Below, one piece after another: positions 25,472 through 44,113 of a stretch of DNA of 64,000 nt. A program made the translations under genes and the position numbers. Location: contig NZ_AKIZ01000022.1 of NCBI RefSeq assembly GCF_000282595.1, positions 310,001 to 374,000 of the forward strand, given 5' to 3'. The first letter of the stretch is position 1. Each line of letters begins with the position of its first letter. Source of the DNA: Phyllobacterium sp. YR531. Lineage in GTDB: Bacteria; Pseudomonadota; Alphaproteobacteria; Rhizobiales; Rhizobiaceae. The notes beneath the pieces are model-generated. The model was not told the origin of the DNA. It was given only the letters and a program-made list of their open reading frames with translations, and searched no databases.

Positions 25472-26239
25472 ATGATGCCCTCCGCGATTTTCCCCGATCT
25501 CAAAAACCGGTCTGTCCTTATTACTGGCGGAGGGTCCGGTATCGGCGCGTCACTTACGGAAGGCTTTGTACGTCAGGGCGCTCGTGTTGCCTTTATTGAC
25601 ATTGCTGATGAGCCTTCCAATGCATTGGTCGAGCAGATGGAAGGTCAGTATGGAAACCGACCGCTTTACATCAAAGCGGATCTTTCTGATGTTTACGCCT
25701 TGCGGGCTGCTGTTGCGCAAGCCACTGAAAGAATTGGTTTAATCACCGTTCTGGTTAACAATGCAGCTTGGGATGATCGTCACGATATCGATGATGTTAC
25801 TCCCGAATATTGGGACGCGAACCAGTCCATCAATCTGCGTCCGCAGTTCTTTGCGGCACAGGCTGTCGTGCCGGGAATGCGCCAGTCCGGCGGTGGATCG
25901 ATCATCAACTTCACCTCCACCTCTTTCATGATCAATCATGGTGAAATGCCGTCCTACACGGCGGCAAAAGCCGGAATCATCGGTCTTACCAAGGGGTTAG
26001 CAGGTAGGCTCGGACCGGAGAAAATCCGCGTTAATGCTATCGCACCGGGTTGGGTCATCACCGAGCGTCAGCGGAAATTGTGGGTCTCGGGGGATCGTCT
26101 CCAACACCATATTGACCGGCAGGTGCTGCGTGAGGAAATTCAACCGGGCGACATGGTCGGCCCCTGTTTATTTCTTGCTTCCGATGCGGCGCGAATGCTG
26201 AGTGCGCAGACCCTTATTGTCGATGGAGGTTACCTGTGA
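25472..26239 (+). CDS. SDR dehydrogenase, probable aldose (galactose) 1-dehydrogenase
   Basis: A 255-residue classical SDR: TGGGSGIG (residues 18-25), VNNAAW, catalytic Ser149, Tyr162 and Lys166 (YTAAK), and the C-terminal DGGYL. Asp43 after the second strand (FIDIAD) predicts preference for NAD. As first gene of an operon with KDGal kinase, KDPGal aldolase and an SMP-30 lactonase, it most likely oxidises D-galactose (or L-arabinose/D-fucose) to the lactone. It overlaps the next gene by four bases. A second in-frame ATG is three bases downstream. Confidence 0.82.
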   Translation: MMPSAIFPDLKNRSVLITGGGSGIGASLTEGFVRQGARVAFIDIADEPSNALVEQMEGQYGNRPLYIKADLSDVYALRAAVAQATERIGLITVLVNNAAWDDRHDIDDVTPEYWDANQSINLRPQFFAAQAVVPGMRQSGGGSIINFTSTSFMINHGEMPSYTAAKAGIIGLTKGLAGRLGPEKIRVNAIAPGWVITERQRKLWVSGDRLQHHIDRQVLREEIQPGDMVGPCLFLASDAARMLSAQTLIVDGGYL

Positions 26240-27165
26240 GCCAGGCACCGGTCTATGCTCTAAGTGATTGGGGAACAACACGTTTCAGGCTTTGGCTTGT
26301 CGATGCTGCAGGTCATGTCCTTGGCGAAAAACGCGCCGATGACGGGCTTGATGTTTCGCGTGTGAAGGGCTTTGCATCGGTGCTCGAAGGTCATCTCGCC
26401 AGTCTTGGTGCGCCTTCAAATTTGCCCGTGGTTATATGCGGAATGGCTGGCTCAAGGCAGGGTTGGATTGAAGCGAACTACGTGCCGGTCCCAGCTGATT
26501 TGAATGCCATTCTCTCCGGCTCCGTAAAGCTGCCAGACATGGCGCGGGATGTGCGGATCATTCCCGGCCTTTGCCAAACTGGCGATGCGCCAAATGTAAT
26601 GCGCGGCGAGGAAACCCAGCTTCTTGGCGCTATTCTGGATCGAAATTTGTCCAATGGAATCATAGCAATGCCCGGCACCCACTCGAAATGGGTGGAGCTG
26701 GAGCAAGGAAGGGCAAAGGCATTTGCGACCTATATGACCGGCGAGCTTTATGCACTCATGAGCCAGCAATCGATCCTGCGTCATTCCGTTCAGGACGCGA
26801 CGGAACTGGCATCGCCAGATCATCCGCAATTTATTGCCGCACTCAAATCAATGCTGGCTGGTGGCTCACTTCTCGGGCAGTTTTTCAGTATCCGTGCCGC
26901 CATGCTTCTGAATGATTTGAAACCCGAGGGCGCGGCTTCGCGGCTGTCAGGTCTGCTCATTGGGGCAGAGATTGCCGGCACAAAACTCATATCAAACAAC
27001 AAGATAACACTTGTTGCCTCGGGCGCGATGGCCACTCTATACGGCAAGGCGTTTGAGATTGCCGGTCTTGCTTTCGATCTGGTCGATGCCGATGAAGCCG
27101 TGCGCAAAGGATTATTTGTTGCCGCATCGGGAATTTGGCCGCTTACTCAAGGAACCTCTTCATGA
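26236..27165 (+). CDS. dgoK: 2-dehydro-3-deoxygalactonokinase
   Basis: A 309-residue DgoK-family kinase. The N-terminal LSDWGTTRFRLW is the typical phosphate-binding start of this ASKHA-fold family; further family blocks are VVICGMAGSRQGW, MRGEETQLLG and MPGTHSKWVELEQG. It phosphorylates 2-keto-3-deoxygalactonate to KDPGal with ATP in the cytoplasm. It starts with GTG overlapping the SDR stop codon and ends by overlapping the aldolase start (ATGA), so the operon is translationally coupled. Confidence 0.9.
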   Translation: MSQAPVYALSDWGTTRFRLWLVDAAGHVLGEKRADDGLDVSRVKGFASVLEGHLASLGAPSNLPVVICGMAGSRQGWIEANYVPVPADLNAILSGSVKLPDMARDVRIIPGLCQTGDAPNVMRGEETQLLGAILDRNLSNGIIAMPGTHSKWVELEQGRAKAFATYMTGELYALMSQQSILRHSVQDATELASPDHPQFIAALKSMLAGGSLLGQFFSIRAAMLLNDLKPEGAASRLSGLLIGAEIAGTKLISNNKITLVASGAMATLYGKAFEIAGLAFDLVDADEAVRKGLFVAASGIWPLTQGTSS

Positions 27166-27803
27166 CCCAATCTTCCGCCTCTTGGCCAAAGCTCAAACGT
27201 GATCTGATCGCAATTCTGCGCGGCGTCCGTCCGGACGAAGTTCTGGCGATTGGCGAAGAACTCGCCAATGCTGGTATTGACGTTATCGAAGTGCCGCTGA
27301 ATTCGCCAAATCCGTTTCAATCTATTGAAATTCTTGCAAAAAACCTCTCGCCCCATGTGCTTGTCGGGGCAGGGACAGTGCTTGATGCGGCCGATGTGAA
27401 GCGGCTTGGCGATGTGGGTGGGCGTCTTGTTATTTCGCCAAATGTTGATCCTTCGGTGCTAGCCGCCGCTTCCAAAGCGGGCATGGTATCAATGCCCGGC
27501 GTGTTTACGCCAACTGAAGCGCTTGCTGCTTTGAAAGCCGGGGCGTCCGGCCTGAAGTTCTTTCCTGCCAGTGTTCTCGGCCCGGATGGTATAAAGGCCA
27601 TAAGCGCCATTCTGCCGAAGGAGACGGTCATAGGAGCTGTTGGCGGCGTTGATGAAAACGGCTTTGCAGCTTATGCAAAGGTGGGCGTTCGGACATTTGG
27701 ACTTGGGTCCAGCCTTTACAAGATTGGTGCTGGCGCAGCCGAAGTTGGTGAAAGGGCTCGGCTGACAGTTGCAGCATATGATCGGGTTTTCAGCGAAGTT
27801 TGA
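27162..27803 (+). CDS. dgoA: 2-dehydro-3-deoxy-6-phosphogalactonate aldolase
   Basis: A 213-residue class I KDPG/KDPGal aldolase with a TIM barrel: IAILRGVRPDE, the catalytic Glu43 (IEVPLNSP) and the Schiff-base Lys132 (GLKFFPAS). It splits KDPGal to pyruvate and glyceraldehyde 3-phosphate. The ATG overlapping the dgoK stop is chosen over a start nine codons upstream. Together with DgoK it makes the last two steps of the De Ley-Doudoroff galactose pathway. Confidence 0.9.
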   Translation: MTQSSASWPKLKRDLIAILRGVRPDEVLAIGEELANAGIDVIEVPLNSPNPFQSIEILAKNLSPHVLVGAGTVLDAADVKRLGDVGGRLVISPNVDPSVLAAASKAGMVSMPGVFTPTEALAALKAGASGLKFFPASVLGPDGIKAISAILPKETVIGAVGGVDENGFAAYAKVGVRTFGLGSSLYKIGAGAAEVGERARLTVAAYDRVFSEV

Positions 27804-27805
27804 TA

Positions 27806-28681
27806 ATGAATCAGCCTAAAATCAGCATTTTTTACGATGTTCCGTGCCAATTGGGCGAGGGGCCGGGTTATGATCCGTTGACGAAAAATGCCTGGTGGTT
27901 TGACATAGTTACCGGACGCCTGTTTGAAAAACCTGTGGCTGGTGGCGGCGTCCAGATAACTCAGCTCGGTGAGATGGCGAGTGCCCTTGCAGTTGTTGAT
28001 GCGCGTCATCACCTGATCGCCACGGAAACCGGTCTCGTGCTCCGCAACAGGCTGACCGGCCAAATGGATATGCATCATCCGATCGAGGCTGATAATCCGG
28101 CAACCCGCTCCAATGACGGACGTGTGCATCCTTCCGGTGCCTTCTGGATTGGAACCATGGGAAAAAAAGCTGAAGCAGGGGCGGGCTCGATTTATTGGTA
28201 TCGCAGAGGCGAATTACGTAGATTATTCAATAATATATCCATTACCAACTCCATATGTTTTTCGCCCGATGGCGGCATTGCCTACTTTGCGGACACCCGC
28301 AAGAACATTATTTGGCGCGTCGATACGGAGCGCGAGACAGGACTGCCCATTGGCGAGCCTGCTGAATTTTATCGCCACCACGAAAAGGGGGGCGTTGACG
28401 GTTCCGTAGTCGACGGCGATGGTAATCTATGGAACGCTTGCTGGGGCCGCTCAGCGATTGATATCTATGCGCCTTCCGGCAACCGCATTCATTCAATCCG
28501 AATGCCCGTCAAACAGCCTTCGTGTCCGGCATTTGTCAGCGAAGACACGGCAAGTATGATCGTGACCACTGCCTATCACGATATGAGTGAAGCCTATCAC
28601 AAGACCGATCCTGACGCGGGTAAAACCTACCTGTTGGAAATGCCCGGAAAAGGGCGTTTCGACCCACCAGTGCTTTTGTAA
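27806..28681 (+). CDS. SMP-30/gluconolactonase family lactonase
   Basis: A 291-residue six-bladed propeller protein of the SMP-30/LRE family. Glu18 (CQLGEGPGYD), the Asn in ITNSICFSPDGG and the Asp in VDGSVVDGDGNLWNACW are the usual divalent-metal ligands. It would hydrolyse the sugar lactone made by the SDR dehydrogenase. The ATG at 27806 is three bases after the dgoA stop; the TTG at 27800 is less likely. It is the last gene of the operon. A galactonate dehydratase, required between lactonase and kinase, is absent from the window. Confidence 0.85.
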   Translation: MNQPKISIFYDVPCQLGEGPGYDPLTKNAWWFDIVTGRLFEKPVAGGGVQITQLGEMASALAVVDARHHLIATETGLVLRNRLTGQMDMHHPIEADNPATRSNDGRVHPSGAFWIGTMGKKAEAGAGSIYWYRRGELRRLFNNISITNSICFSPDGGIAYFADTRKNIIWRVDTERETGLPIGEPAEFYRHHEKGGVDGSVVDGDGNLWNACWGRSAIDIYAPSGNRIHSIRMPVKQPSCPAFVSEDTASMIVTTAYHDMSEAYHKTDPDAGKTYLLEMPGKGRFDPPVLL

Positions 28682-31198: not shown

Positions 31199-32134
31199 TC
31201 AGCTGTTAGGAAGACCCGGTGGATTTGTTGCAGCCTTGTCGATTGCTTCCGAGCCGAGATTCCAACGGTCGAGAACCTGTTTGTACTTTCCGTTGGCAAT
31301 AAGGTCATTTAACGCCTGCGTGATGCCTTCTGCGGCACCACTGCCTTTGCGGGTTGTCACCGCAACTTCGGCAGTAATTGGCCAGCCACCACTTACAGTG
31401 CCAACCAGCTTGGTTTTCCCGTTGACCTTCGCCTTATATGCCTGAGTAGCGTTCACGCTGAACACGGCATCTGCCCTGCCCGATTCAACTGCGAGATATT
31501 TTACGGCCTCATCGTCGTAATACTGCACTTCAATCGGCTTCAGGCCATTGCCGACATTCTGTTTATCCCAAGCCAGCAGAATTTTTTCCTGGTTGGTGCC
31601 CGGATCGGTAATGATTTTGAGACCGGCAATATCCTTCGGTTCCTTGATCGAAGTAATGGATCCGGCGGCCTTCACGTAAAACCCAAGCTCATCCTTGCGA
31701 TAGGTCGAAAAGTCAAACTTCTCCTTGCGTTGTTCCGTCACCGTCACATTGGAAATGACCGCATCGAACTTTCCGGACTGCAGACCGAGCGGCCAATCTG
31801 CCCAAGCAACTGGTACAAGAACAAGTTCACGCCCAAGGCTGTCGGCAACAAGCTGCGCAAGGTCTACGTCATATCCGACAACGGTCTTTGCGTCGGTTGC
31901 GTAGGTGCTTAATGGAGGATTGCCCGGTGCAAGACCAATCGTCAGCTTTGTGTCATCGATAAATTTGAAACTCTTCGAAACCGCTTCTATGGCGGGTGCG
32001 CTTTTCTCGGCCCTTATTCTGTCTTTCTGCTCCGGGCTAAGATCAAATCCGCCATCGGCAGCGTGGCTCACTCCTGCCAAGACAGTTAGAAATATGCCTG
32101 CGAATGCAGCGGATAACCCCGTTTTCCGTATCAT
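31199..32134 (-). CDS. Polar amino-acid ABC transporter binding protein (second copy)
   Basis: A 311-residue periplasmic SBP_bac_3 protein: signal peptide (about 1-25, TVLAGVSHA-AD), then a ligand fold with KLTIGLAPGNPPLSTYATDA, GYDVDLAQLVADSLGREL and FDAVISNVTVTEQRKEKFDF. It aligns end to end with the product of the gene at 33213 (shared ATDAKTVVGYD, VPVAWADWPLGLQSGKFDAV, SIKEPKDIAGLKI). It overlaps the flavin oxidoreductase gene by four bases (ATGA) and is the last gene of the long minus-strand series. The substrate is probably an amino acid or a modified cysteine. Confidence 0.87.
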   Translation of the reverse strand: MIRKTGLSAAFAGIFLTVLAGVSHAADGGFDLSPEQKDRIRAEKSAPAIEAVSKSFKFIDDTKLTIGLAPGNPPLSTYATDAKTVVGYDVDLAQLVADSLGRELVLVPVAWADWPLGLQSGKFDAVISNVTVTEQRKEKFDFSTYRKDELGFYVKAAGSITSIKEPKDIAGLKIITDPGTNQEKILLAWDKQNVGNGLKPIEVQYYDDEAVKYLAVESGRADAVFSVNATQAYKAKVNGKTKLVGTVSGGWPITAEVAVTTRKGSGAAEGITQALNDLIANGKYKQVLDRWNLGSEAIDKAATNPPGLPNS

Positions 32135-33192
32135 GCCTGACCCCTTTGTAAGTGTGTTGAGTGTTGATTACTTTTGGAAGTATTTTTCCAACCGAGTTCC
32201 GGTGCGATATGTGCAACGAAGTCGGAAAGAATCTGCTCGTACTCATGCGGTTTGAATTCGTAGGGTAGTTCGAGACGCAGCTCTCCGACCCCGGCAACTA
32301 CCGGGTCGTTAAACAGGTGCTCAAGAATTTGCTCCGACGTTCCCACCAGATCTTGCGGAAAAAGCGTTCGCCTGTCGCCTTGTGGCTTAAGCGTCCTCTC
32401 ATGCCTGCTTGAAGCATAATTCAGGTATTTCTCTTTCGTTTTGGCATCGGCGCTATCCGTCGGCACAATGACGCGCCCAAGAGAAACGCGTTGCTTATGG
32501 GGATGCGCTGCATTGGTTTTAAAACTGTCCAATTGGCGGAATTGCGCTTCAAAAAAGTTATCCGTCCCCTCCCCCACAACCACATTGCTGAGCATGAGGT
32601 TAAAGCCATTTTGACCCGCCCACTTGCTGGAGCGCAGGGACCCTCCGCCATACCAAAGCCGATCTATCAGTCCCTTGGCGTAGGGCTGGAGCCGTGGCCG
32701 CTGACGCCCGAAAGGTGTCGCTATGAAGGTATCCTCTGGGCCAAGGAAATCGCCACGGAGGTGGTTTGCGAAACGTCTCACCCGCTCATGCGAAAGGTCG
32801 TAATCTTTCCAGTCACCATCGAATACCAAGGGACCCAGCAAATCTGCATGAGCCGGAGCGCCAGCGCTCACGCCGACATTGAGGCGTCCTTGTGATAGAA
32901 CATCGACGGTAGAGAGATCTTCAGCCAACCGGTACGGGCTTTCATACCCAATCTGAATAACGGCTGTTCCGATCTGAATGCGGTGTGTCCTCTGACTGGC
33001 TGCTGCCAGAAATATGCCTGCAGAAGAGATGCCATGTTCAAGATGGCGTTGACGCACCCAAGTGCTATCAAAACCCAACTCTTCACCAAAGACCAGAAGC
33101 TTCAGCGTAGCTTCCAATCCCGGATAGGGATTGTTGTCATCGTAATTTCCCGGTGTAAGAAATCCGATATGATTTATTGCAGTTTTCGACAT
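32131..33192 (-). CDS. LLM-class flavin-dependent monooxygenase
   Basis: A 353-residue bacterial luciferase-like protein beginning MSKTAINHIGFLTPGNYDD; the TIM-barrel features FGEELGFDSTWVRQRH, TAVIQIGYESPYRLAEDLSTVD and LNVGVSAGAP are visible. Such enzymes use reduced FMN from a partner reductase to oxygenate small molecules. The upstream frame extends 29 codons into the preceding binding-protein gene, so ATG at 33192 (20 bases after that gene) is used. It is wedged between two paralogous binding-protein genes. The substrate should be what they bring in. Confidence 0.85.
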   Translation of the reverse strand: MSKTAINHIGFLTPGNYDDNNPYPGLEATLKLLVFGEELGFDSTWVRQRHLEHGISSAGIFLAAASQRTHRIQIGTAVIQIGYESPYRLAEDLSTVDVLSQGRLNVGVSAGAPAHADLLGPLVFDGDWKDYDLSHERVRRFANHLRGDFLGPEDTFIATPFGRQRPRLQPYAKGLIDRLWYGGGSLRSSKWAGQNGFNLMLSNVVVGEGTDNFFEAQFRQLDSFKTNAAHPHKQRVSLGRVIVPTDSADAKTKEKYLNYASSRHERTLKPQGDRRTLFPQDLVGTSEQILEHLFNDPVVAGVGELRLELPYEFKPHEYEQILSDFVAHIAPELGWKNTSKSNQHSTHLQRGQA

Positions 33193-33212
33193 GACACTAT
33201 TCCCGATGCGAT

Positions 33213-34145
33213 TCAGATTTTCGGCAAACCGGGAGGATTTGTGCGCGATCGCTTGAGCGCTTCGGGCGTCAACTGCCAACGCTCCAATAGCTGCGCATAT
33301 TTTCCATTATCAATCAGCTCGTTGATGGCTGCGGTCAGGCTATCCGCTATTCCGCTTCCCTTGCGTGTCGTCACGGCGACGTCGGCAATCAGCGGCCAGC
33401 CTGCATTGACCGTACCCACTAGTTTGATCTTGCCTTCGCTGGCTGCGCGGAAGGCTTGTGTCGCATTTGGATTGAATTCCGCATCGGCGCGGCCGGACTG
33501 TATGGCAAGCGCGCTCACAGCTTCGTCGTCGTAATATTGCAAGGTCGAAGGCTTAAATCCCTTGGCGACGTTCTGCTTGTCCCACTCCAGGAGAATCTTC
33601 TCCTGTATGGTGCCTGAACTTGTGATAATCCTGAGCCCAGCAATATCCTTCGGTTCTTTTATGGACGCAATCGGGCTATCGGATTTGACGTAAAATCCAT
33701 GCAGGCCCTGCCGATACGTCGAGAAGTCGAATTTCTCCTTCCGCTGTTCGGTCACACCTACATTCGAGATTACGGCATCGAATTTCCCTGACTGCAGTCC
33801 AAGAGGCCAATCGGCCCATGCCACCGGAACCAGATCCAGCTTTCTCCCCAGCGTATCGGACACCAGCAGAGCAATATCCGGGTCATAGCCAACAACAGTC
33901 TTTGCATCAGTCGCGTAGGTGGCAAGTGGCGGATTGTCCACTGCAATGCCTACTGTAAAGATGCCGTCCTCAACGAATTTGAAGGATGCGGGTATCGTGG
34001 CAACGACCTTTTCGCTCTTCTCTGTTCGTAGCCGACCTGGTTGTTCAGCGCTGAGATCAAGTGCCTCTGCACCGGTAGACAAGCTGATTGCCAAGATGAA
34101 AGTTGGCAACATGATTTGGGGTAAAAAGTTAAGATACTGCTTCAT
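33213..34145 (-). CDS. Polar amino-acid ABC transporter binding protein (first copy)
   Basis: A 310-residue SBP_bac_3 protein with signal peptide (about 1-29, ending TGAEA-LD) and the same blocks as the gene at 31199, including WADWPLGLQSGKFDAVISN and FDFSTYRQ. It follows the permease-ATPase fusion by 15 bases. Two binding proteins served by one membrane unit would widen the ligand range, for example to the acetylated and free form of the same compound (inference). Confidence 0.87.
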   Translation of the reverse strand: MKQYLNFLPQIMLPTFILAISLSTGAEALDLSAEQPGRLRTEKSEKVVATIPASFKFVEDGIFTVGIAVDNPPLATYATDAKTVVGYDPDIALLVSDTLGRKLDLVPVAWADWPLGLQSGKFDAVISNVGVTEQRKEKFDFSTYRQGLHGFYVKSDSPIASIKEPKDIAGLRIITSSGTIQEKILLEWDKQNVAKGFKPSTLQYYDDEAVSALAIQSGRADAEFNPNATQAFRAASEGKIKLVGTVNAGWPLIADVAVTTRKGSGIADSLTAAINELIDNGKYAQLLERWQLTPEALKRSRTNPPGLPKI

Positions 34146-34160
34146 ATCGAGAATTCCTGA

Positions 34161-35966
34161 TTAGAGAACTTTTGCGAGGAACTCGGCAGTCCGCGGATTT
34201 GCCGGTCGGTTAAGCACTTGCTCAGGCGATCCGGTTTCGACGATTTTCCCGGCGTCCATGAAGATCACGGTATCTGCAACTTCGCGCGCAAAGCCGATTT
34301 CATGCGTGACGATGATAAGTGTCGTGCCCGAGCGTGCGAGTTCCTTGATGACATCCAGAACCTCCCCGACAAGTTCAGGGTCGAGGGCTGATGTGGGTTC
34401 ATCAAAGAGCAACACTTTGGGGCGCAACGCAAGCGCTCTTGCAATAGCAACACGCTGCTGTTGTCCGCCGGACAGTTGTCTTGGATACGCATTGATCTTG
34501 TCACTGAGGCCAACGCGTACAAGCAGATCGCGTGCAAGATTGATCGCTTCCGGTCGGGTCAGGCGATTGAGCGATACGGGTGCTTCGATGATGTTTTCAA
34601 GCACAGTCAGATGCGGGAATAAATTGAAGCTTTGGAACACCATGCCGATATCAGCTCGGCGCTTCAGAATGTCTTTCTCCTTAAGCTCGTAAAGTGTCCG
34701 TCCGCTTTTGCGATAACCGACAAGCTCATTATCGACAGTAATGAAACCGTCATCGACACGTTCCAGATGGTTGATTGTTCGCAGGAGCGTCGACTTGCCG
34801 GAACCGGAAGGCCCGAGAATGGCGGTGACGCTGCCTGCCTTTATGTCCAGCCGTACATTGTCGAGCACTTTCAACTGGCCGAAGCTTTTTGATACGCCGT
34901 GTATTCTGACTGCTCCCGGCGCACGCCATTGTGTGAACGATTCCCGTGGTGCCTCTGTTTTCGAGACGGGCTTCAGGCTGTTGGGGGAAACCGTGGGAAA
35001 AGCAGGGCGCGCAAGAATTGGCGCTCCAAAAAGCCGATGCAGCAATGGCCCGAACAGTGGCGCGGGTGCGTTGCGTAGTGCGCCTTTGGAGAAGTGCCGT
35101 TCGATGTAGTATTGTGCGACAGAAAGCACCGTCATGATGATCAGATACCAGACGGTAGCAACCATGAGCAGTGGCACGACTTCCAGATTACGACGATAAA
35201 TAACCTGCACCGTATAGAACAGTTCCGGCAAAGCGAGGACGTAGACCATTGATGTCCCCTTGGCCAAGCCGATGATCTCATTAAACCCAGTGGGAAGGAT
35301 CGTGCGCATGGCTTGCGGGAGGACGATGCGGAATGCCTGTCGCCGACGCGGAAGGCCAAGCGCTGCAGCCGCTTCATGTTGTCCCTGATCGACGGAAAGG
35401 ATGCCGCCGCGAATGATCTCTGACGAGAACGCCGCCTGGTTGAGGCTGAGCCCGATAAGTGCCGCCGCGAAAGGACTCAAGACCGAAACCATCGGATATT
35501 CGGCGAAGTTGATGTCCGTGTACGGAATACCAATTCGCACGGTTTCATAAAGGTAGCCGAGGTTGTTAAGGATCAGCAGCAGTACAATGAGCGGAATGGA
35601 TCGCAGCAGCCAGATATAGGCCCAGGAAAGGCCTGAAAGCAGAGGTGATTTGGATACGCGCGCCAAGGCGAGCGCGGTGCCAAGTGCAAAGCCGAGAACC
35701 GATGCCAGTGCAGTCAACAGCAATGTTCGTGCCAGACCCGCAAGCACCGGTTCGGCAAAGAACCATTCAGCGAAAACGTCCCATCCCCATTTTGAGTTGG
35801 TCAATATCGACTGCAACATCGCAATAATAACGAATGCTGCAAAAAGTGTTCCAAAGAAACGAGTGGGATATTTCGCTTTGACGATCTTGTAATGAGTGTA
35901 ATCCTCGTTGGAACTAGGAGTTACCTTCAGTGAATGAGCGCTCGAATAGTCTGTCGCGATCGCCAT
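34161..35966 (-). CDS. Fused amino-acid ABC transporter permease and ATP-binding protein
   Basis: A 601-residue single polypeptide. Residues 35-290 are a HisM/GlnP-type permease (five or so membrane segments, EAA loop GQHEAAAALGL at about 196-204). Residues 291-350 are a proline-rich linker. Residues 351-601 are a complete GlnQ-type ATPase: Walker A GPSGSGKST (385-393), LSGGQQQRVAIARALAL, LLFDEPTSALDPE. Normally these are two genes; the fusion means a homodimer could be the whole membrane unit. A GAGGAA ribosome binding site precedes the ATG. It is followed by two binding-protein genes and a monooxygenase gene. The long polar N-terminus (about 34 residues) is cytoplasmic. Confidence 0.88.
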   Translation of the reverse strand: MAIATDYSSAHSLKVTPSSNEDYTHYKIVKAKYPTRFFGTLFAAFVIIAMLQSILTNSKWGWDVFAEWFFAEPVLAGLARTLLLTALASVLGFALGTALALARVSKSPLLSGLSWAYIWLLRSIPLIVLLLILNNLGYLYETVRIGIPYTDINFAEYPMVSVLSPFAAALIGLSLNQAAFSSEIIRGGILSVDQGQHEAAAALGLPRRRQAFRIVLPQAMRTILPTGFNEIIGLAKGTSMVYVLALPELFYTVQVIYRRNLEVVPLLMVATVWYLIIMTVLSVAQYYIERHFSKGALRNAPAPLFGPLLHRLFGAPILARPAFPTVSPNSLKPVSKTEAPRESFTQWRAPGAVRIHGVSKSFGQLKVLDNVRLDIKAGSVTAILGPSGSGKSTLLRTINHLERVDDGFITVDNELVGYRKSGRTLYELKEKDILKRRADIGMVFQSFNLFPHLTVLENIIEAPVSLNRLTRPEAINLARDLLVRVGLSDKINAYPRQLSGGQQQRVAIARALALRPKVLLFDEPTSALDPELVGEVLDVIKELARSGTTLIIVTHEIGFAREVADTVIFMDAGKIVETGSPEQVLNRPANPRTAEFLAKVL

Positions 35967-36193
35967 ACGATTACATTCCTCTTCAAACCACTTTGCCGAA
36001 TTTCAACACCCAGAAATAATATTCTGATGTAGGTAATTTTACTCGACTGATTTAGTAGTTTTTAAAGAGCCTCGTCAAAGATGGATGCTGCGTATGGAGT
36101 GTCGAATGAGAAGCATTGTTGCAAAGTTTTCTGCTTCTTTAGTATGAAATCCCATTATCGTATCGCGCACAGGTCGGGGGCTCAGGACTGCCG

Positions 36194-36736
36194 TCAGGCC
36201 GCCTGTGTTTTGTTATTGGCTTCCTCGCGGGCTAGCGGCACACCGTCGGTCAGCAGATGGCTGATGTCTTTCTCAAAAGCGAGATGGCGATAGATTTCCG
36301 GATCGACATTCACATCAAACAGTGCTGTGTAGCCTGATCTCAAATAGAGCTGCGTGGCTTCCGGTTGCCGGAATCCGGTTGTGAGATAGATACGCGTATA
36401 GCCTTGCCGAAATGCCTGCGCTTCAAGTTCATAGACGACCTTTCGTGCCAACCCCTGCTGGCGCAGGCGGGAGTGAGTCCAGATGCGCTTCAGCTCGGCT
36501 GTGCGTTCGTCATACCGCTTGAAAGCCCCTCCGCCAATCGTCTCTCCATCTCGGATCAGCAGCAGAAACGCCCCGTCCGGTTGCGCAAAATATGAAGCTG
36601 GATAGCGGCTGAGTTCATTGCGTGCGGGTTCGCCGAAATAGTCCCCATAGCGCCCTTCATATTCCTCAATGAGCGCTTCTATCAGTGGCTGGGAACGTTC
36701 ATCGTCCGGAGTGGTATAAACAAACACGTCAGTCAT
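36194..36736 (-). CDS. GNAT family N-acetyltransferase
   Basis: A 180-residue acetyltransferase: the acetyl-CoA loop is RLRQQGLARKVVYELE (RxxGxA motif A), preceded by LKRIWTHS and followed by YLTTGFRQPEATQLYLRSGY (motif B). It acetylates an amino group in the cytoplasm. It lies 25 bases after the M20 amidohydrolase gene, with a ribosome binding site AAGGAC. A pair of an N-acetyltransferase and an M20 deacetylase around a flavin monooxygenase is the hallmark of the Bacillus ytm/yxe cysteine-adduct salvage operons, so an S-substituted cysteine is a sensible substrate (inference). Confidence 0.83.
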   Translation of the reverse strand: MTDVFVYTTPDDERSQPLIEALIEEYEGRYGDYFGEPARNELSRYPASYFAQPDGAFLLLIRDGETIGGGAFKRYDERTAELKRIWTHSRLRQQGLARKVVYELEAQAFRQGYTRIYLTTGFRQPEATQLYLRSGYTALFDVNVDPEIYRHLAFEKDISHLLTDGVPLAREEANNKTQAA

Positions 36737-36761
36737 GCCTGGTTCGCGTCCTTTCGCAAAT

Positions 36762-37952
36762 TCAGGATGGGTTCTTGCCGAGATAATCTTCAGTCAGCTT
36801 CACCCAATAACGGGAAGCCGGACCGATAATCTCGTCATTGAAGTTGTAGTTCGGGCTGTGAAGCGGGGCGCTGTCGCCATTGCCGATGAAGAGATAGCTA
36901 CCGGGTCGCGCTTCGAGCATGAAGGCAAAATCTTCGCTTGCCGAAATCGGGCGGAAGTTGCTCTCAACCTTTTCAGCACCGAAATGGGTGATTGCCGTCT
37001 GTCGGGCAAACTCTGTCTCCGCCGGATGGTTGACTAGAACCGGGTAGCCCCGCGGGTAATCCACTTCGGCAGACGCGCCATAACTTTCTGCCTGTGATCG
37101 TGCCAATGCCGTGATTCGCTCTTTAATCTTTTCCCGCACCTCAGAGCGAAACGTCCGCACAGTCAGCTCAAGCTGCACGCTGTCGGGGATCACGTTCGGC
37201 GCTATGCCTGCATGGATGGTGCCGACAGTGATAACCGCCGCGTCGAGTGGGTCGATGTTACGCGACACGATACTTTGCAGGGCGAGAATGAACGACGCGC
37301 TGGCGACCACGGGATCGATTGTTTCCTGCGGCCTTGCGCCATGCCCACCCTTACCCGTGATGCGTACTCTGACCAGATCCACCGAGGCCATGGCAGGCCC
37401 TGATATAAAGCCAAACTGCCCTGCCGCGACACCTGGCCAATTGTGAAGACCAAAAACGGCGTCGCAGGGGAAACGGTCAAACAAACCATCTTTGATCATA
37501 CGGCGAGCGCCAGCGCCACCTTCTTCGGCAGGCTGAAAAATGACATTCAGTGTGCCAGAGAAGTTACGTGTTTCTGCCAGATGACGGGCGCTGTGAAGGA
37601 GTATGGTCGTGTGCCCGTCATGGCCGCAAGCATGCATCTTGCCCTTTATCGTACTGGCATAGGGCAGGCCCGTGGCTTCTTCAATCGGCAGTGCGTCCAT
37701 GTCAGCACGGATGCCAACCTTCTTTGGTCCGTTGCCATTCTGCAGTTTCCCGACAACGCCGGTACCCCCTATACCGGTTGTGACATCGTAGCCCCAAGCA
37801 CGGAGTTTATCGGCCACCAACTCGCTGGTACGGTGTTCATCATAGGCGAGTTCCGGATGGCGATGCAGATCATGGCGTAAAGCCACAGCCTCGCCGAGGG
37901 TTCGCTCGATGGACTCCTGAACTGTATCGGGAGTTGCAGTCATTCTAGGCAT
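36762..37952 (-). CDS. M20 family amidohydrolase (N-acyl amino acid deacetylase)
   Basis: A 396-residue M20D peptidase/hippurate-hydrolase-like protein. The metal site is visible in [17 protein letters not shown] (Cys109, His111) and [11 protein letters not shown] (Glu143/Glu144), followed by GKGGHGARP of the dimerisation domain and a late SEDFAFM. It removes acyl groups from amino acids. Its start overlaps the NtaA-type monooxygenase by eight bases, so both are coupled. Bacillus relatives (YxeP, YtnL) deacetylate N-acetylcysteine derivatives. Confidence 0.87.
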
Positions 37953-39300
37953 TTTCCTTTACGACCGAGCGATTGGATGGGCCTGCCGCGGCTTTGGTGT
38001 AACGGCTTTCGCGGAACGGCAGGCCAAGATTATCGCGCAAGGTCGTACCCTGCAGGGTGGGACGGTGATAGCCGCGAGCTTCCAGAATAGGCAGAACTTC
38101 GCGGGCAAAATCATCAAGCCCTGCAGCGAGAATCTGGAAGCCCAGAATAAAGCCGTCAGCCGCATCATTGTCTATCCAGCGGATTAGCTCGTCGGCAATC
38201 TTGTCCGGTGTTCCTGTGAAGCCATTGCGCGGCGTGGTGACTTCGAGTGCTACCTCGCGCAAGGTCTGACCTTTTACCTTGGCATCGCGCTTTATCCGGT
38301 CGGTGGTTGAACGGAAATTATTCTTTCCGATATCACCGAGTTCCGGGAATGGCTTGTCGAGCGGATACGCACTGAAATCGTGGTGATCGAAAAAGCGGCC
38401 AAGATAGGCCAGCGCTTCCTCTATCGTCACAAGATCACGGATCTCCCGATATTTCGCTTCAGCTTCGGCCTCGGTGGAACCGACAATTGGAGCAATACCG
38501 GGGAAAATCAGAATTTCATCAGCATTGCGGCCATTCGCGACTGCACTTTTTTTCAACTGCCGGTAAAGAACTTGCGCATCCTCAATCGGTACAAGATTTG
38601 TGAAAACGCCATCCGCATGTTTTCCAGCCAATTTGATGCCGTCGTCGGAAGCCCCGGCCTGAAAGACAACCGGCTGCCCCTGTTGCGAACGCCCAATGTT
38701 CAATGGTCCTTCCGAATTGAAGAAGCGTCCGTGATGGTTCAACTTGTGTAATTTGGCGGGGTCGAAAAACTGTCCGTTTACCCGGTCGCGTGTAAATGCA
38801 TCATCATCCCAGGAATCCCATAGCCCCTTGACCACATCAAGATGCTCTTCAGCTATCTCGTAGCGCAGGGCATGGTCGGGATGATCGCGTCCATAATTCT
38901 TTCCGGACCCTTCCAGTGGAGATGTAACCGCGTTCCAGCCGGCGCGCCCGTTACTGATCTTGTCAATGGAGCCGAACTGTCGCGCAACGGTAAATGGATC
39001 ACTGTAAGAGGTTGACAATGTGCCAACGAGACCAAGTTTCGATGTGGTCGCTGCCAGTGCTGAAAGAATGGCAATGGGTTCGAACCGATTGAGAAAATGC
39101 GGAATTGATTTTTCGTTGATATAGAGCCCGTCTGCGATGAAAGCGAAGGCAATGCCCGCACTTTCGGCTTTCCGGGCCTGTTCGAGATAGAAAGGGAAAT
39201 TGATGCTGGCATCCGGCGGCGAGCTCGGGTGTTTCCATGAATTCATGTGGCCGCCGGGGCCTTGCAGCATGATTCCAAAGTGGATTGGTTTTTTACTCAT
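37945..39300 (-). CDS. NtaA/SnaA/DszA-family flavin monooxygenase
   Basis: A 451-residue protein of the nitrilotriacetate monooxygenase subgroup of luciferase-like enzymes. It begins [20 protein letters not shown] and carries [40 protein letters not shown] and the family C-terminus. These enzymes oxidise C-N or C-S bonds with FMNH2 and O2. YtnJ/YxeK of Bacillus belong here and attack S-substituted N-acetylcysteines. It ends inside the start of the M20 gene and follows the smaller LLM gene by 15 bases. A flavin reductase is not seen nearby. Confidence 0.88.
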
Positions 39301-39315
39301 TGTAATTCTCCACGG

Positions 39316-40344
39316 TCACGCGGCGAGTGCATGTTGTGCTTGAGCCAGCAACTGGATTGATGAAAGGCGCTTGGCGGCATCCCGGATCGGTGTGTCTATG
39401 ACAAACTCGCCAATACCAAAACGCTTGTGCAGTCGATCAAGCTCGCAGAGAACCTTGCGCGCCGAACCGCGGATGACATTTGGTGTTTTCTTTTCGATCC
39501 GATAGCTGCTCGCACCGGCCTGCCGCGCATATTCTTCTGCCTGTTCGACACTGCCGACAGTTACGCTCTGGCCGCCTTCCACATGCACTTTGAAATGCTG
39601 AATATCGCCAACAAGCTGCTCAGCTTCACTATCGGTTTCTGCCGCAACGACGCCGACGGCGAGCAGTGGTTTTTGCCCCTGCGATTTTCCAGTGTAGATA
39701 TCCAGGGTCTGTTTGAGAACTTCTTCGTCGCCATTCAAATGACTGGCAAAGACAAAATTCCAACCCTGCGTGGCTGCAAGAATTGCACTGTCCGGGCTTG
39801 CTCCCAGCAGAAACCTCTCCGCCGCAGCGGCAGGCAGCGGGGTTGCCCGCACGCTTGCCAAAGGATGACTCACCGGCAAGCCATCGTCGAGAAAAGCGCC
39901 GAGCTGTTCGAGTTGCGCTGCAAAATCCTGCTTCTCTGCTCGCGGCAACAAGCCCTGTAAGGCTCGTGTGGAGAAAGGAAGACCGCCGGGTGCCTTGCCG
40001 ACACCAAGATCAATACGGCCCGGTGCAAGGCTTGCCAGAACATTGAAATTCTCTGCGACCTTATACGGGCTGTAGTGCTGCAGCATCACGCCGCCCGAAC
40101 CGATACGGATGGTAGAAGTATGCGCAGCAATGAACGCAATGAGGACTTCCGGTGAAGAACTGGCTACGTCGGGCGTATCATGATGTTCAGCAACCCAGAA
40201 CCTGTGAAATCCCCATTCTTCAGCCTGTCTGGCCAAAGCGACTGAGCGCTTCAAGGCAGCATGGGCTGTCTCACCATTAAAAACCGGACTTTTATCAAGC
40301 AGACTGAGTGCATAGCCCATTTTTGAAAATGGCCTCCATTGCAT
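39316..40344 (-). CDS. LLM-class flavin-dependent oxidoreductase
   Basis: A luciferase-like protein of about 342 residues with GYALSLLDKSPVF at the N-terminus, WGFHRFWVAEHHDTPDVASS, IRIGSGGVMLQHYSPYKVAE and DLGVGKAPGG, the YtmO/CmoO-like type 1 family signature. The MQWRPF start at 40344 is preferred; MGYALS at 40320 is also possible, and the open frame goes up to 40419. It precedes the NtaA-type gene by 15 bases. A CmoO-like and a CmoJ-like enzyme together strengthen the comparison to the Bacillus ytm operon. Confidence 0.83.
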   Translation of the reverse strand: MQWRPFSKMGYALSLLDKSPVFNGETAHAALKRSVALARQAEEWGFHRFWVAEHHDTPDVASSSPEVLIAFIAAHTSTIRIGSGGVMLQHYSPYKVAENFNVLASLAPGRIDLGVGKAPGGLPFSTRALQGLLPRAEKQDFAAQLEQLGAFLDDGLPVSHPLASVRATPLPAAAAERFLLGASPDSAILAATQGWNFVFASHLNGDEEVLKQTLDIYTGKSQGQKPLLAVGVVAAETDSEAEQLVGDIQHFKVHVEGGQSVTVGSVEQAEEYARQAGASSYRIEKKTPNVIRGSARKVLCELDRLHKRFGIGEFVIDTPIRDAAKRLSSIQLLAQAQHALAA

Positions 40345-40475
40345 AAAGGCAACCTTCCGGCTCGGAAGATTGCAGTTTTCAGAGGCACCCAGATTTTCCT
40401 TTAACAAGCCAGTCGTCAAAGAACAGCTTGCTAAAAATTCAATGAACTACAGAATTACTATCTCTGCCGCATTTG

Positions 40476-41777
40476 TCAGAAATGCTCGTCGCTATCTGCC
40501 CGCTTACCAAGGACGACTGCCGCAATCAGACCAAGCGCCACGCCGAACATGACGTAATAGGTTGGAGCCATGGGCGATCCGGTTTTCTGGATCAACCATG
40601 TCACAATAAACTGCGCAAAGCCGCCAATAAGCATGACGGCGACGTTGTAGGAGATAGATAGCCCCAAAGACCTTACGCGTGTTGGAAAGAGCACGGCCAT
40701 AACCGTGCTGAACACGGCGAAGAATGCAGCTGCACACAGCCCCGTTGCCAATTGAACCACGATCAGTCTGCCGATCGTGGGGGCGGCTGTCAGCCATGAG
40801 TAAAGCGGAAACAATATGACCAGGTACAGCGCCAGCGAAGTAATAAGCAGCTTGCTGCGGCCGATCTTGTCCGAGAGAATGCCCATCAAGGGCGTCAGGA
40901 CGACGACCCAGAATGCGCCAAGCATCTGCACCTCAAAAGTTTTCTGAAGTGGTAACAGGAGTATCTTGGTTGCAAAGGTCACCAGATAGGTGAAAGTGAT
41001 GTAAACCGTAACCGTAGCAGCGGCCACAAGTCCGATTCCAAGAATAGTCTCACGCCACGAGTTCGCCAACAATTCACCGATGCTGATGTGCGTGCCTTTG
41101 ACAGCCTCCTCGCGCTTGGCATTGCGAAATACTTCTGTCTCGTCAAGGCGCTGGCGAATGTAGACGGCAACGGGAATAATGATCAGGCCGACAAAAAATG
41201 GAATGCGCCAGGCCCAAGCCTCGATTTGCTCCTGATTGAAATAGACAGTCATCAAGGTTCCGGCTGCAGCACCGATCAATAGTCCGATCATCTGGCCGGT
41301 CATTTGCCACGAACCGTAAAAGCCACGCTTTTCACGAGGTGCCATTTCGATGAGTAGTGCAGTTGCCGTGCCGAACTCACCCCCTGCCGAAAAGCCTTGT
41401 ACCAGGCGTGCAATGAGGATCAGCAGTGGTGCCAAAACACCGGCTGCCTGATAAGTCGGAGCAAATGTAATTATTGCCATCGACACGGCCATGAGCGACG
41501 TAATCAGCACCATGGCGGCCTTGCGACCATGTTTGTCACCGTAGAGTCCAAGGACAATGCCCCCGACCGGACGCATCAAAAACCCGACGCCAAAGATGGC
41601 GGTTGTCATGAGAATGGCGTTAAGGTCACTGCTGGATGCAGATGGATCGACCGGGAAAAACAAACGCGCAATGATGGGTGTCATAAAGGCGAAGACGAGA
41701 AAGTCGTACCATTCGAGTGCGTTGCCAATGACGGCGGCCGCGAGGTTACGCACCGGCACTTTATGAGGATTCTGCAT
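40476..41777 (-). CDS. MHS-family MFS metabolite:proton symporter
   Basis: A 433-residue protein with twelve membrane segments and the ProP/ShiA-type signatures NALEWYDFLVFAFM at the N-terminus, GDKHGRK in the loop between segments 2 and 3 and ARLVQGFSAGGEFG. This family takes up organic acids, amino-acid derivatives or compatible solutes with protons. AAGGATA precedes the ATG. It is the first gene of the minus-strand series, about 130 bp ahead of the LLM gene, and probably a second entry route for the substrate. Confidence 0.85.
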   Translation of the reverse strand: MQNPHKVPVRNLAAAVIGNALEWYDFLVFAFMTPIIARLFFPVDPSASSSDLNAILMTTAIFGVGFLMRPVGGIVLGLYGDKHGRKAAMVLITSLMAVSMAIITFAPTYQAAGVLAPLLILIARLVQGFSAGGEFGTATALLIEMAPREKRGFYGSWQMTGQMIGLLIGAAAGTLMTVYFNQEQIEAWAWRIPFFVGLIIIPVAVYIRQRLDETEVFRNAKREEAVKGTHISIGELLANSWRETILGIGLVAAATVTVYITFTYLVTFATKILLLPLQKTFEVQMLGAFWVVVLTPLMGILSDKIGRSKLLITSLALYLVILFPLYSWLTAAPTIGRLIVVQLATGLCAAAFFAVFSTVMAVLFPTRVRSLGLSISYNVAVMLIGGFAQFIVTWLIQKTGSPMAPTYYVMFGVALGLIAAVVLGKRADSDEHF

Positions 41778-41884: not shown

Positions 41885-42931
41885 TCAAGAAATGTTTTCC
41901 CCATGAACCGCTGCTATCACGCCAAACCGCCTTCTATATTGAGCCGGGCTCAGGCCGGCCTGACGCTTGAAAATGCGCCGGAAAAAGGAAGGGTCTTCAT
42001 AACCTACTTCGGCTGCGATATCTTCGATGCCCTTGTCGGTTGTCTCCAGCATCTGTTTCGCCTCTTCTATGCGAAGCGCTTGAACATAATCGACAGGGGT
42101 ATATCCGGTCGCGATTTTGAAGCGTCGCTTGAAGCTGCGTTCAGGCAAGCCGGTTTGCTGTACCATACGTGTGACCGGCGCGGGCTCTGCGTAATGATCT
42201 GCAATCCATACCTGACATTGCGCGATTGCCATGTCTTCGTGTTGTCGAGGGCGGGTCATCGCCGCAAACGGCAATTGTCCATCGCTTCGGTCGCCGATGA
42301 CGAAAATCTTTGAGGCCCGCACTGCTTCAGCCGGTCCGCAGTAACGGCCGATCAGATAGAGAGCGAGATCCTGCCAGGATGAAGCTCCACCTGTCGTGAT
42401 CAACCGGCCATCGTGACCGCTGTCACATAGAATGCGCTCCGGTCGGAACTTCACGGCAGTGTAGCGATCGCGGAAAAGTTCGGACGCGCTCCAATGCGAC
42501 GTTGCATTCTGGCCGTCCAGCAACCCGGCCTCTGCCAGAAGAACTGAACCGCTGCATGTCGAGCAGACAACGGCTCCCCGTTTCACCTGCTCACGTACCC
42601 ATAAGATTTCACCCCGCCAACGCCCCTCAGGGCCGCCCTTTAACGGCAACTCAATGTCACAGACAATGATAACGTCCGGACGGTGGTCTGGTCCGATAAC
42701 CGCATGTGGAGTTATCGGGATGCCAATGGCCGACGTGAAGCCCTGTGATTGGCGAGCGACGATCTGCGGCTTTATTGACCGTACTTCCGTGACTTCCCCG
42801 GTCAGCAACGGCCAGATATTGCCGACAGACCCCAGGACTTCGAACAGACCGAAGACAGCCATTGGTGCTGTTTCAGGCAAAACGAGGATACTGACAGTCA
42901 ATGGCGCAGCGGGAAGTCTTTTAGGAAACAT
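41885..42931 (-). CDS. GlxA-type AraC family transcriptional regulator
   Basis: A 348-residue regulator with an N-terminal DJ-1/PfpI-like domain (TVSILVLPETAPMAVFG, CSTCSGSVLLAEAGLLDG with the nucleophile-elbow Cys) and a C-terminal AraC double helix-turn-helix (LPERSFKRRFKIATGYTPVDY, EVGYEDPSFFRRIFKRQAGLSP). The start at 42931 (MFPKRLP) gives the family length; the open frame continues to 43051 across the divergent promoter and is rejected. It is divergent from an SRPBCC/GST pair and also stands directly upstream of the MHS/monooxygenase series on the same strand. Confidence 0.86.
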   Translation of the reverse strand: MFPKRLPAAPLTVSILVLPETAPMAVFGLFEVLGSVGNIWPLLTGEVTEVRSIKPQIVARQSQGFTSAIGIPITPHAVIGPDHRPDVIIVCDIELPLKGGPEGRWRGEILWVREQVKRGAVVCSTCSGSVLLAEAGLLDGQNATSHWSASELFRDRYTAVKFRPERILCDSGHDGRLITTGGASSWQDLALYLIGRYCGPAEAVRASKIFVIGDRSDGQLPFAAMTRPRQHEDMAIAQCQVWIADHYAEPAPVTRMVQQTGLPERSFKRRFKIATGYTPVDYVQALRIEEAKQMLETTDKGIEDIAAEVGYEDPSFFRRIFKRQAGLSPAQYRRRFGVIAAVHGENIS

Positions 42932-43034
42932 AAGGCCAAAATGGCATGAATGCCCCGGTTTTGTCCATCTCGCCTCTAACCCGAGGTAGCTCGAACACGT
43001 AACCTCCTGCCAGTGCTTAATCAAGGAGGACGTG

Positions 43035-43526
43035 ATGCTCGACAAGACCATAGCCTATGCCACAGTAACAGCTGAACGCCGCATTAGAGCACATGTCAAC
43101 AATGTGTTTGCGGCCTGGGCAGATAAGGACGCCATTATGCAATGGAGTGCCCCGGGCGAAGCGTGGGAAATGTCCTATGATGAGTTCGATTTCCGGACAG
43201 GACATACGGATATCTGCACCTTCGGAGTAACCGGCACAGTGCCTTACATTAACACCGTTCGATATGAAGACATTCGAACCGATGAGCGTATCGTTTACAC
43301 CGCGACGATCTCGCATGCCGGTGCACTGATCTTTGTTGGAACCGTGATCATCACACTTAACGACAAAGGTCATGAAACGCTGTTGCAATTTACTGAATCA
43401 GGCTTTTACTTCGATGGCGCTGATACGCCGGAGGGACACGAGGCCGGATGGGAAGCGATGCTTGATGGCCTCGCGGCTTATGTTGAACTTAAAGCGGGCG
43501 CAACGCGTCAAATGGAGAGGGTTTAA
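43035..43526 (+). CDS. SRPBCC/AHSA1 domain protein
   Basis: A 163-residue START-like protein with VTAERRIRAHVNNVFAAWAD at the beginning and FTESGFYFDG...GHEAGWEAMLDGLAAYV at the end, the AHSA1 (activator of Hsp90 homologue-like) pattern common in small bacterial lipid- or aromatic-binding proteins. AAGGAGGA (43023-43030) stands before it; ATG at 43035 is preferred over GTG at 43032 because of spacing. It is followed two bases later by a GST-like gene and is divergent from the GlxA-type regulator. No reaction can be predicted. Confidence 0.82.
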   Translation: MLDKTIAYATVTAERRIRAHVNNVFAAWADKDAIMQWSAPGEAWEMSYDEFDFRTGHTDICTFGVTGTVPYINTVRYEDIRTDERIVYTATISHAGALIFVGTVIITLNDKGHETLLQFTESGFYFDGADTPEGHEAGWEAMLDGLAAYVELKAGATRQMERV

Positions 43527-43528
43527 TA

Positions 43529-44113
43529 ATGAGGTATTTCTATTCTCCCGACACCTGTGCTTTAGCCGGGCATATCGCCCTTGCCGAAGCAGGTCATGAA
43601 CCGGAACTTATCAAGGTCGATGTTTTCACCAGAACGATCAATGAGCCCGGGGACTACAATAACGTAAATCCCAAGGGTTATGTGCCTTTGCTGGAGTTTG
43701 ACGACGGCAGGAAACTTACAGAGAACGTTGCAATCCTTCGTTGGATTTCTAAAAATTCAGAACGCTTCTCAAAATCGCCACCGGACGATGACAGGCTTAC
43801 GGAAACGTTGGCTTTCATATCGAGTGAAATTCAAAAGCCGTTTGTCTTTTCCTTTTTTCTACCCGGCGATGAAGCGAAAAAAGACTTGAGTGAAATGGTC
43901 GCCGGACGGTTTGCCTATCTTACCCAAGTGCATGACAAAAAATTCCTGTTGGGCAATGACTTTAGTGTGGCTGACGCGTTTCTCTATGTGATGCTCCGCT
44001 GGGCCCGCATGGTGAACATGGAGGTGTCGACTCGGCTTCTGGAGTATCGGGACACAATTGAGCAATTGCCCTCGGTACAGCGGGCATTGCAGGAAGAAGG
44101 ATTGGCTACCTGA
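43529..44113 (+). CDS. Glutathione S-transferase-like protein
   Basis: A 194-residue GST fold protein: the thioredoxin-like N-terminus begins RYFYSPDTCALAGHIALAEAG with a Ser/Cys pair in the beta-class position (SPDTCALA), followed by KGYVPLLEFDDG and TENVAILRWI. The C-terminal helical domain has FLLGNDFSVADAFLYVML. It likely conjugates or reduces electrophiles with glutathione. It starts two bases after the SRPBCC gene, so the two act together. Confidence 0.85.
   Translation: MRYFYSPDTCALAGHIALAEAGHEPELIKVDVFTRTINEPGDYNNVNPKGYVPLLEFDDGRKLTENVAILRWISKNSERFSKSPPDDDRLTETLAFISSEIQKPFVFSFFLPGDEAKKDLSEMVAGRFAYLTQVHDKKFLLGNDFSVADAFLYVMLRWARMVNMEVSTRLLEYRDTIEQLPSVQRALQEEGLAT

Follow-up and report, generated by a model that had tools for sequence, protein, structure and literature searches.

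Which compounds are handled by a run of genes that combines luciferase-like monooxygenases with an acetyltransferase, a deacetylase, and an amino-acid importer? The question is raised by a locus of Phyllobacterium sp. YR531, in a stretch of 64,000 nucleotides (contig NZ_AKIZ01000022.1, positions 310,001 to 374,000 of the forward strand) that is called the window here. The original prediction recognized nine minus-strand genes at 31199-41777 as a candidate pathway that acetylates, oxidises, and deacetylates S-substituted cysteines. All nine were found with open frames, and the claimed families (GNAT, M20, three luciferase-like monooxygenases, two binding proteins, a fused importer, and an MHS symporter) were matched by profile scans. 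Their order of transcription is MHS symporter, O, J, P, L, T, B1, X, and B2. It is quite likely that the eight genes from O to B2 form one operon through which sulfur is obtained from cysteines with an S-substituent (S-alkyl or S-benzyl-like).

All eight genes lie on the minus strand. O (39316..40320) encodes an MsnO8-family luciferase-like monooxygenase (TIGR03558, 351 bits with a cut-off of 167), a predicted CmoO-type S-oxygenase. J (37945..39300) belongs to the NtaA/DmoA family of monooxygenases (TIGR03860, 500 bits with a cut-off of 280) and is a predicted CmoJ-type sulfoxide C-S monooxygenase. The GNAT and M20 genes are both present, with substrates predicted by family: P (36762..37952; PF01546 and TIGR01891) is an M20 deacetylase predicted to act on N-acetylcysteine, and L (36194..36736; PF00583, 60 bits) is a predicted S-substituted-cysteine N-acetyltransferase. 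The genes of an amino-acid ATP-binding cassette (ABC) importer comprise two SBP_bac_3 genes and a fused permease-ATPase of the polar-amino-acid type, T (34161..35966). The T protein of 601 aa carries BPD_transp_1 at 94-293 and ABC_tran at 368-526, and its ATPase half is closest to the EhuA, TcyN, and GlnQ models, all under cut-off. The family-3 solute-binding proteins (SBPs) B1 (33213..34145) and B2 (31199..32134), both PF00497, are 63% identical to each other. Their top NCBIfam models are cystine-binding or lysine/arginine/ornithine-binding, under cut-off, and B2 scores best with the cystine-binding model (96 bits with a cut-off of 312). X (32131..33192; PF00296) is a third luciferase-like monooxygenase of its own subfamily.

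The start of O was corrected from 40419 to 40320, the position at which five plasmid relatives have their annotated starts in the alignment; the called TTG start at 40419 is too early because it sits within a conserved promoter element. The start of X is probably near 33192 instead of 33279, judging from the annotated start of its nearest relative. With these starts, the genes from O to B2 overlap or are separated by at most 25 bases, except for 227 bases between L and T, and this spacing fits a single operon.

The conservation of the gene set was analyzed with J. Named bacterial genomes were scanned with it, and the best 80 of the 577 stretches that were confirmed, all kept for their close J, were combined with five plasmid loci and the window into 86 loci, or 77 once copies with J at least 97% identical were removed. 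O, L, and T are present in 77/77 of these distinct J-selected loci. At least one SBP is found in 76 (all but L057, a contig of 7 kb) and at least two in 71. X is present in 65 loci and M20 in 64, and the complete set is together in 54. The commonest order is O-J-P-L-T-B-B-X (O-J-P-L-T-B-X-B in the window), and it recurs in alpha- and betaproteobacteria. With the set found again across these 77 loci, all selected by similarity to J, the eight genes from O to B2 are a conserved cassette and more than a chance grouping. Record titles with the cassette include Phyllobacterium, Rhizobium, Sinorhizobium, Agrobacterium, Bosea, Methylobacterium, Microvirga, Acidovorax, Variovorax, and Paraburkholderia. 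Five copies are plasmid-borne, including those of the Phyllobacterium plasmid records NZ_CP050302.1 and NZ_CP017943.1. J is an accessory gene: with the window's own genome included in each count, it was found above 850 bits in 12 of 20 genomes searched within the genus, and it is present in 39 of 394 genomes of a family sample and in 2 of 385 of a class sample.

Three single loci may be recorded beside these counts. In L050, whose record is titled Mycobacterium sp. KBS0706 (a title possibly wrong), the cassette has its GNAT, one SBP, and importer inverted. A single stop interrupts the CmoJ frame at 9977-11347 of L038. Genes of an ABC-three-component system are annotated just downstream of the cassette (4716-8048 of L001) on a Phyllobacterium zundukense plasmid.

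The identity of J is informative on the substrate. J shares 56% identity with YtnJ of B. subtilis over 423 aa. YtnJ and YtmO are taken here to be CmoJ and CmoO, the names used in PMC10863075. Among solved structures, J scores 548 bits with YtnJ chains, 252 with DszA, 209 with dimethyl-sulfide monooxygenase, and 200 with ethylenediaminetetraacetate (EDTA) monooxygenase. In a maximum-likelihood tree of 37 J-type rows, which do not include YxeK, J groups with seven close relatives, a second paralogue group, L114, and YtnJ in a CmoJ clade of 13 rows (support 100/99). The placement of YtnJ within this clade is weakly fixed (80/83), and several long branches leave the deeper order unsure. As judged from identity and clade membership, J is a CmoJ orthologue. 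This points to the CmoO-CmoJ route for S-alkylcysteines, and probably not to the breakdown of S-(2-succino)cysteine. The MsnO8-family enzyme O is paired with J in all 77 loci. The predicted logic of acetylation, oxidation, and deacetylation is supported. The emphasis that had been laid on S-(2-succino)cysteine and the yxe operon is not supported, as J falls in the CmoJ clade and has a CmoO-like partner throughout. The window's genome has a second related locus (L117; contig C15, 180001-200000). Its monooxygenases are a CmoO-like enzyme (505 bits), a second member of the CmoJ clade (634 bits), and one more of the luciferase-like group; it also encodes a GNAT and two binding proteins, one of the SBP_bac_5 dipeptide type and one of the NMT1 type.

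According to the available part of PMC10863075, the B. subtilis pathway begins with acetylation and with sulfoxidation by CmoO, CmoJ then splits the C-S bond of the sulfoxide into an aldehyde and a sulfenic acid, and reduction and deacetylation follow; the available part of PMC12757645 describes the M20 enzymes ScmP, YhaA, and YtnL as deacetylating N-acetylcysteine. In the cassette, B1 and B2 would capture an S-substituted cysteine, and the fused importer T would take it up. L would N-acetylate the imported amino acid, and O would turn the thioether into a sulfoxide using reduced flavin mononucleotide (FMNH2) and O2. J would then cleave the C-S bond of the N-acetyl sulfoxide, setting free an aldehyde and leaving N-acetylcysteine sulfenic acid. 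After reduction of the sulfenate, P would strip the acetyl group, and cysteine would result. X is a putative accessory flavin monooxygenase of the pathway, perhaps broadening the substrate range or handling the released aldehyde. The reactions, the substrate, and the induction of the operon in the window's own genus are what we infer. The observed basis consists of the gene content, the conserved order, the place of J in the CmoJ clade, the co-occurrence of J and X, and a sulfur-regulon motif in Rhizobium relatives.

This motif is the dyad TCTA-N9-TAGA. It was found within 200 bases upstream of O in 35 of the 77 loci, mostly of the Rhizobium type, against 0.22 in mononucleotide shuffles; with a spacer of 8 or 10 bases there were 0 matches. 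The form TCTACTGATTTTATAGA, searched with up to two mismatches in six genomes, gave 12 matches against 0 with the reversed pattern. Two of these sites lie at this operon, two at cysH (one of them divergent from an Rrf2 gene), one at a tauD-type gene, and one at a gene for an SsuD-like monooxygenase (191 bits, under the SsuD cut-off). The remaining sites lie at an NlpA-type transporter (one), an SBP_bac_5 gene (one), ABC ATPase genes (two), and unassigned genes (two). A wider dyad pattern, applied to 14 genomes, matched in 62 rows, compared with 13 for the reversed control, palindromic sites being counted on both strands. Among the 28 wider-pattern loci examined, seven are this operon, four are ssuD with a divergent flavin-reductase-like gene, one is cysH/Rrf2, one is tauD, and one is a binding protein resembling that of the cassette by its N-terminus and profile. 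One of the four motif-bearing ssuD genes was scanned, and it scores 610 with the SsuD equivalog model (cut-off 518). To judge from these sites, the operon probably belongs to a sulfur regulon in Rhizobium relatives. The neighbouring Rrf2 gene suggests that an Rrf2-type protein may bind the dyad.

Several individual sites were also observed. In L145, L146, L158, and L159 the variant GTCAATAAATTTTATAGAG lies between ssuD and the divergent flavin-reductase-like gene, and the same or a near-identical site is present in four more genomes. In one Rhizobiaceae genome (L129, 1501-2200, and L153), the dyad GTCTACTAATTTGATAGAC lies between an Rrf2-type gene and cysH-cysD, which point away from each other; the two may be a sulfur regulator and its operator. 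Proteins weakly matching CrtR-type hydroxylases (L163, 49 bits, under 475; and L164) carry a sulfur-type motif, and a similar-looking protein is encoded downstream of the cassette in the Rhizobium-type loci L019 and L026.

In the genus Phyllobacterium another promoter element, TTAGCAA-N5-TCTTTGACG, is conserved upstream of O (40414..40434 of the window, minus strand); its TTGACG fits a -35 box. With up to two mismatches it is present at the operon in 7/7 genus genomes searched, and one base differs in L006; the pattern was built from four Phyllobacterium loci, one of them the window, so at least G000 (the window's genome), G006, and G012 are not independent of it. Since the element lies between the symporter gene and O, the operon probably has its own promoter. 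As a regulon marker, the element found the operon only with up to two mismatches, and with three mismatches it found six other sites against 10 in the reversed control. Sigma-54 sites were absent from the 77 stretches upstream of O (0.36 expected by shuffling), so control by NifA was rejected, though nifA lies near one cassette copy.

The neighbouring open reading frames of the 77 loci were clustered, and one representative per cluster was scanned with Pfam or NCBIfam. A DsbA-fold protein is encoded near 16 loci, directly downstream on the same strand in 13, and it might reduce the sulfenate. Flavin_Reduct is found near 10 loci and FMN_red near seven, giving 17 distinct loci with either. Cystathionine beta-lyase is encoded near six loci (close behind on the same strand in five), and an Rrf2 regulator near six at a median distance of about 2.3 kb. 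A PALP enzyme, CysK-like by our reading, lies directly downstream in two loci. The biggest neighbour cluster (21 loci) is ABC ATPase-like by sequence and unspecific. The sulfur role given to the genes in the original prediction is supported by these neighbours together with the regulon in the Rhizobium relatives.

The following points weigh against the reading of the cassette as a sulfur-salvage operon. The 77 loci were picked by J similarity and are related, not independent. The recurrent neighbours fit sulfur salvage as raw counts, without a background rate for the families, and of the 20 window proteins scanned in the surroundings of the operon, none was recognized as a flavin reductase or a DsbA-fold protein. 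No M20 gene is adjacent in 13/77 cassettes, and X is missing from 12/77. The CmoO-type label of O is a prediction from its family and its pairing with J, and the role given to L is a prediction from its GNAT family. Half of the wider-pattern loci (14/28) adjoin genes without a clear sulfur role. The window and five of the six other distinct Phyllobacterium-titled loci are without TCTA-N9-TAGA, which is present in L045. With no dyad, and with a genus element that marks no other sulfur gene, the sulfur link in Phyllobacterium rests on homology.

Among other explanations, it is conceivable, though unlikely, that the operon serves mainly to detoxify mercapturate-like cysteine conjugates derived from glutathione adducts, with sulfur recovery secondary. 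The available part of PMC10863075 ties CmoO and CmoJ to the catabolism of glutathione-derived S-conjugates. A glutathione S-transferase gene lies in the window at 43529-44113, and ggt or gamma-glutamylcyclotransferase genes lie within 10 kb of the P. zundukense and R. leguminosarum copies; these links are single cases here. The dedicated binding-protein importer argues instead for uptake from outside, and the dyad ties the operon to sulfur assimilation genes. A supply of legume gamma-glutamyl-S-methylcysteine was also considered and is not used as evidence, gamma-glutamyl enzymes being found near two annotated loci with the others not searched.

A second alternative is a pathway of the yxe/scm type for S-(2-succino)cysteine, in which the GNAT acetylates, J acts as YxeK/ScmK and oxygenates N-acetyl-S-(2-succino)cysteine directly, and the M20 enzyme deacetylates. 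The enzyme classes are identical, the best PDB match of P is YxeP (1ysj, 257 bits), and CmoJ and YxeK are homologous according to the available part of PMC10863075. J groups with CmoJ, however, and the PrpD-linked type forms a separate clade (L038, L029, L098, and L115; support 100/100) in the tree that leaves YxeK outside. The monooxygenase genes of L038 and L115 (region L174) adjoin an MmgE/PrpD gene, an SBP gene, and an ABC ATPase gene, and that of L029 adjoins MmgE/PrpD at the end of the stretch. YxeQ is presumably MmgE/PrpD-like, so this PrpD-linked make-up is as expected of yxe loci. Neither an MmgE/PrpD gene nor a lyase class I gene was found among the 20 window proteins scanned, and a CmoO-like partner accompanies J in every locus. 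The yxe/scm explanation is accordingly rather improbable. In L038 (2712-8590) and L029 (18898-21317) a yxe-like locus lies beside the cassette, so both cysteine-adduct routes can be neighbours; a yxe-like PrpD-linked locus is also present elsewhere in another genome of the genus.

Degradation of a non-sulfur N-substituted amino acid or an aminopolycarboxylate such as nitrilotriacetate or EDTA, suggested by the name NtaA/DmoA of TIGR03860 and by the top-scoring PDB match of J (3sdo, 658 bits, where nitrilotriacetate monooxygenase is the depositors' label only), was rejected as very improbable, since J scores 200 bits with EDTA monooxygenase against 548 with YtnJ, such a route has no evident use for an acetyltransferase and a deacetylase, and the relatives carry the sulfur-regulon motif.

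Within the preferred reading, salvage of S-substituted cysteines through the CmoO-CmoJ route, X is the component that stands apart. Its scores stay under cut-off with each of the 23 NCBIfam models listed. X is closest to TIGR04027, one of the families TIGR04027 and TIGR04028, whose models are named after KPN_01858 and KPN_01854; with 94 bits against the curated cut-off of 413, membership in TIGR04027 is ruled out. A TIGR04028-like binding protein (310 bits, under 469) bears a TCTA-N9-TAGA-type motif in one Rhizobiaceae genome (L127). The 24 aligned relatives of X are 51-75% identical, and 62 of the 65 X-bearing loci have a single X frame above 400 bits. X is short or split in L003, L019, and L052, where the other cassette genes were found, and L028 has an extra X fragment. 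Among the 394 family genomes, X was found in 32, all of them among the 39 with J (Fisher 1.3e-40, shared ancestry ignored), with thresholds set by us at 1e-220 for J and 1e-100 for X and with the best few candidates per genome scored. The two genes lie at most 10 kb apart in 30 of the 32 pairs, the exceptions being G615 and G717. The restriction of X to sampled genomes with a CmoJ gene argues that it is a genuine yet accessory component, and its absence from 12 cassettes argues that it is not essential for the core.

The best solved match of X is the alkanal monooxygenase alpha chain (73 bits), a weak hint that X may act on aldehydes. A tentative proposal, which may well be wrong, is that X provides a dedicated third flavin-dependent step in S-substituted-cysteine salvage, absent from the characterised pathways. 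It might, for example, oxidise the aldehyde released by CmoJ. Alternatively, it could act as another S-oxygenase or C-S-cleaving enzyme, giving rhizobia and Burkholderiales access to plant-derived S-methyl- or S-aryl-cysteines that are beyond the reach of Bacillus. The cassette would in that case represent a sulfur module of the plant root, carried in some instances on plasmids and controlled in Rhizobium by a sulfur regulator of the Rrf2 type.

Two local neighbours precede the operon on the minus strand. The MHS-family symporter gene (40476..41777; TIGR00883, 377 bits, under the 443 cut-off) had been counted as a member of the pathway, and upstream of it lies a gene for an AraC regulator with a DJ-1/PfpI domain (41885..43051; HTH_18 and DJ-1_PfpI). 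Each was found in 1/77 loci, the window itself, and both were rejected as parts of the system. On the plus strand of the window, 25472-28681 encodes a short-chain dehydrogenase, a 2-keto-3-deoxy-galactonokinase, a KDPG-type aldolase, and an SMP-30 lactonase, a galactonate-like sugar-acid catabolic cluster.

A published description of the cassette or of X was not found in the openly accessible literature, subscription papers being outside the search; within that scope, the suggestion that this exact arrangement is undescribed stands. Nothing on the operon was found in the available parts of the rhizobial bacteroid transcriptomes (PMC3732241 and PMC3973600). The notion of a Gram-negative counterpart of ytm is supported, and is not new by itself: the available part of PMC9706529 puts the number of genomes with yxe loci at 102 out of about 2000, Dickeya dadantii being a proteobacterial case, and that of PMC10863075 describes S-alkylcysteine salvage as widely distributed among soil bacteria. 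The cassette would extend the Bacillus sulfur-salvage pathway in compact form to many soil and root-associated proteobacteria, with S-alkylcysteines as a predicted natural sulfur source for rhizobia. It also exposes an uncharacterised flavin monooxygenase, X, seen only with this pathway in the genomes sampled, and suggests an operator for a sulfur regulon in Rhizobium whose regulator would be of the Rrf2 type.

Compared with the yxe/scm system of B. subtilis, as described in the available parts of PMC9706529 and PMC12757645, the cassette is alike in its strategy of acetylating, breaking, and deacetylating, and in its GNAT, M20, and importer genes. It differs in that its monooxygenase falls in another clade than the PrpD-linked type, oxidation would proceed in two steps, and there is no PrpD-type gene; yxe-like loci and the cassette coexist in some genomes. 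The ytm operon of B. subtilis has two SBPs, and its genes also include CmoI, RibR, and YtnM. Set against this operon and its CmoO-CmoJ system (PMC10863075), the cassette shares a CmoJ-clade enzyme, a second luciferase-like monooxygenase, a GNAT, an M20, and a polar-amino-acid ABC importer that has two binding proteins. Counterparts of CmoI, RibR, and YtnM were not recognized in the window, and regulation seems different. The two differences from Bacillus that had been predicted are both supported: permease and ATPase are fused in one protein in the window, and X is added in 65/77 loci.

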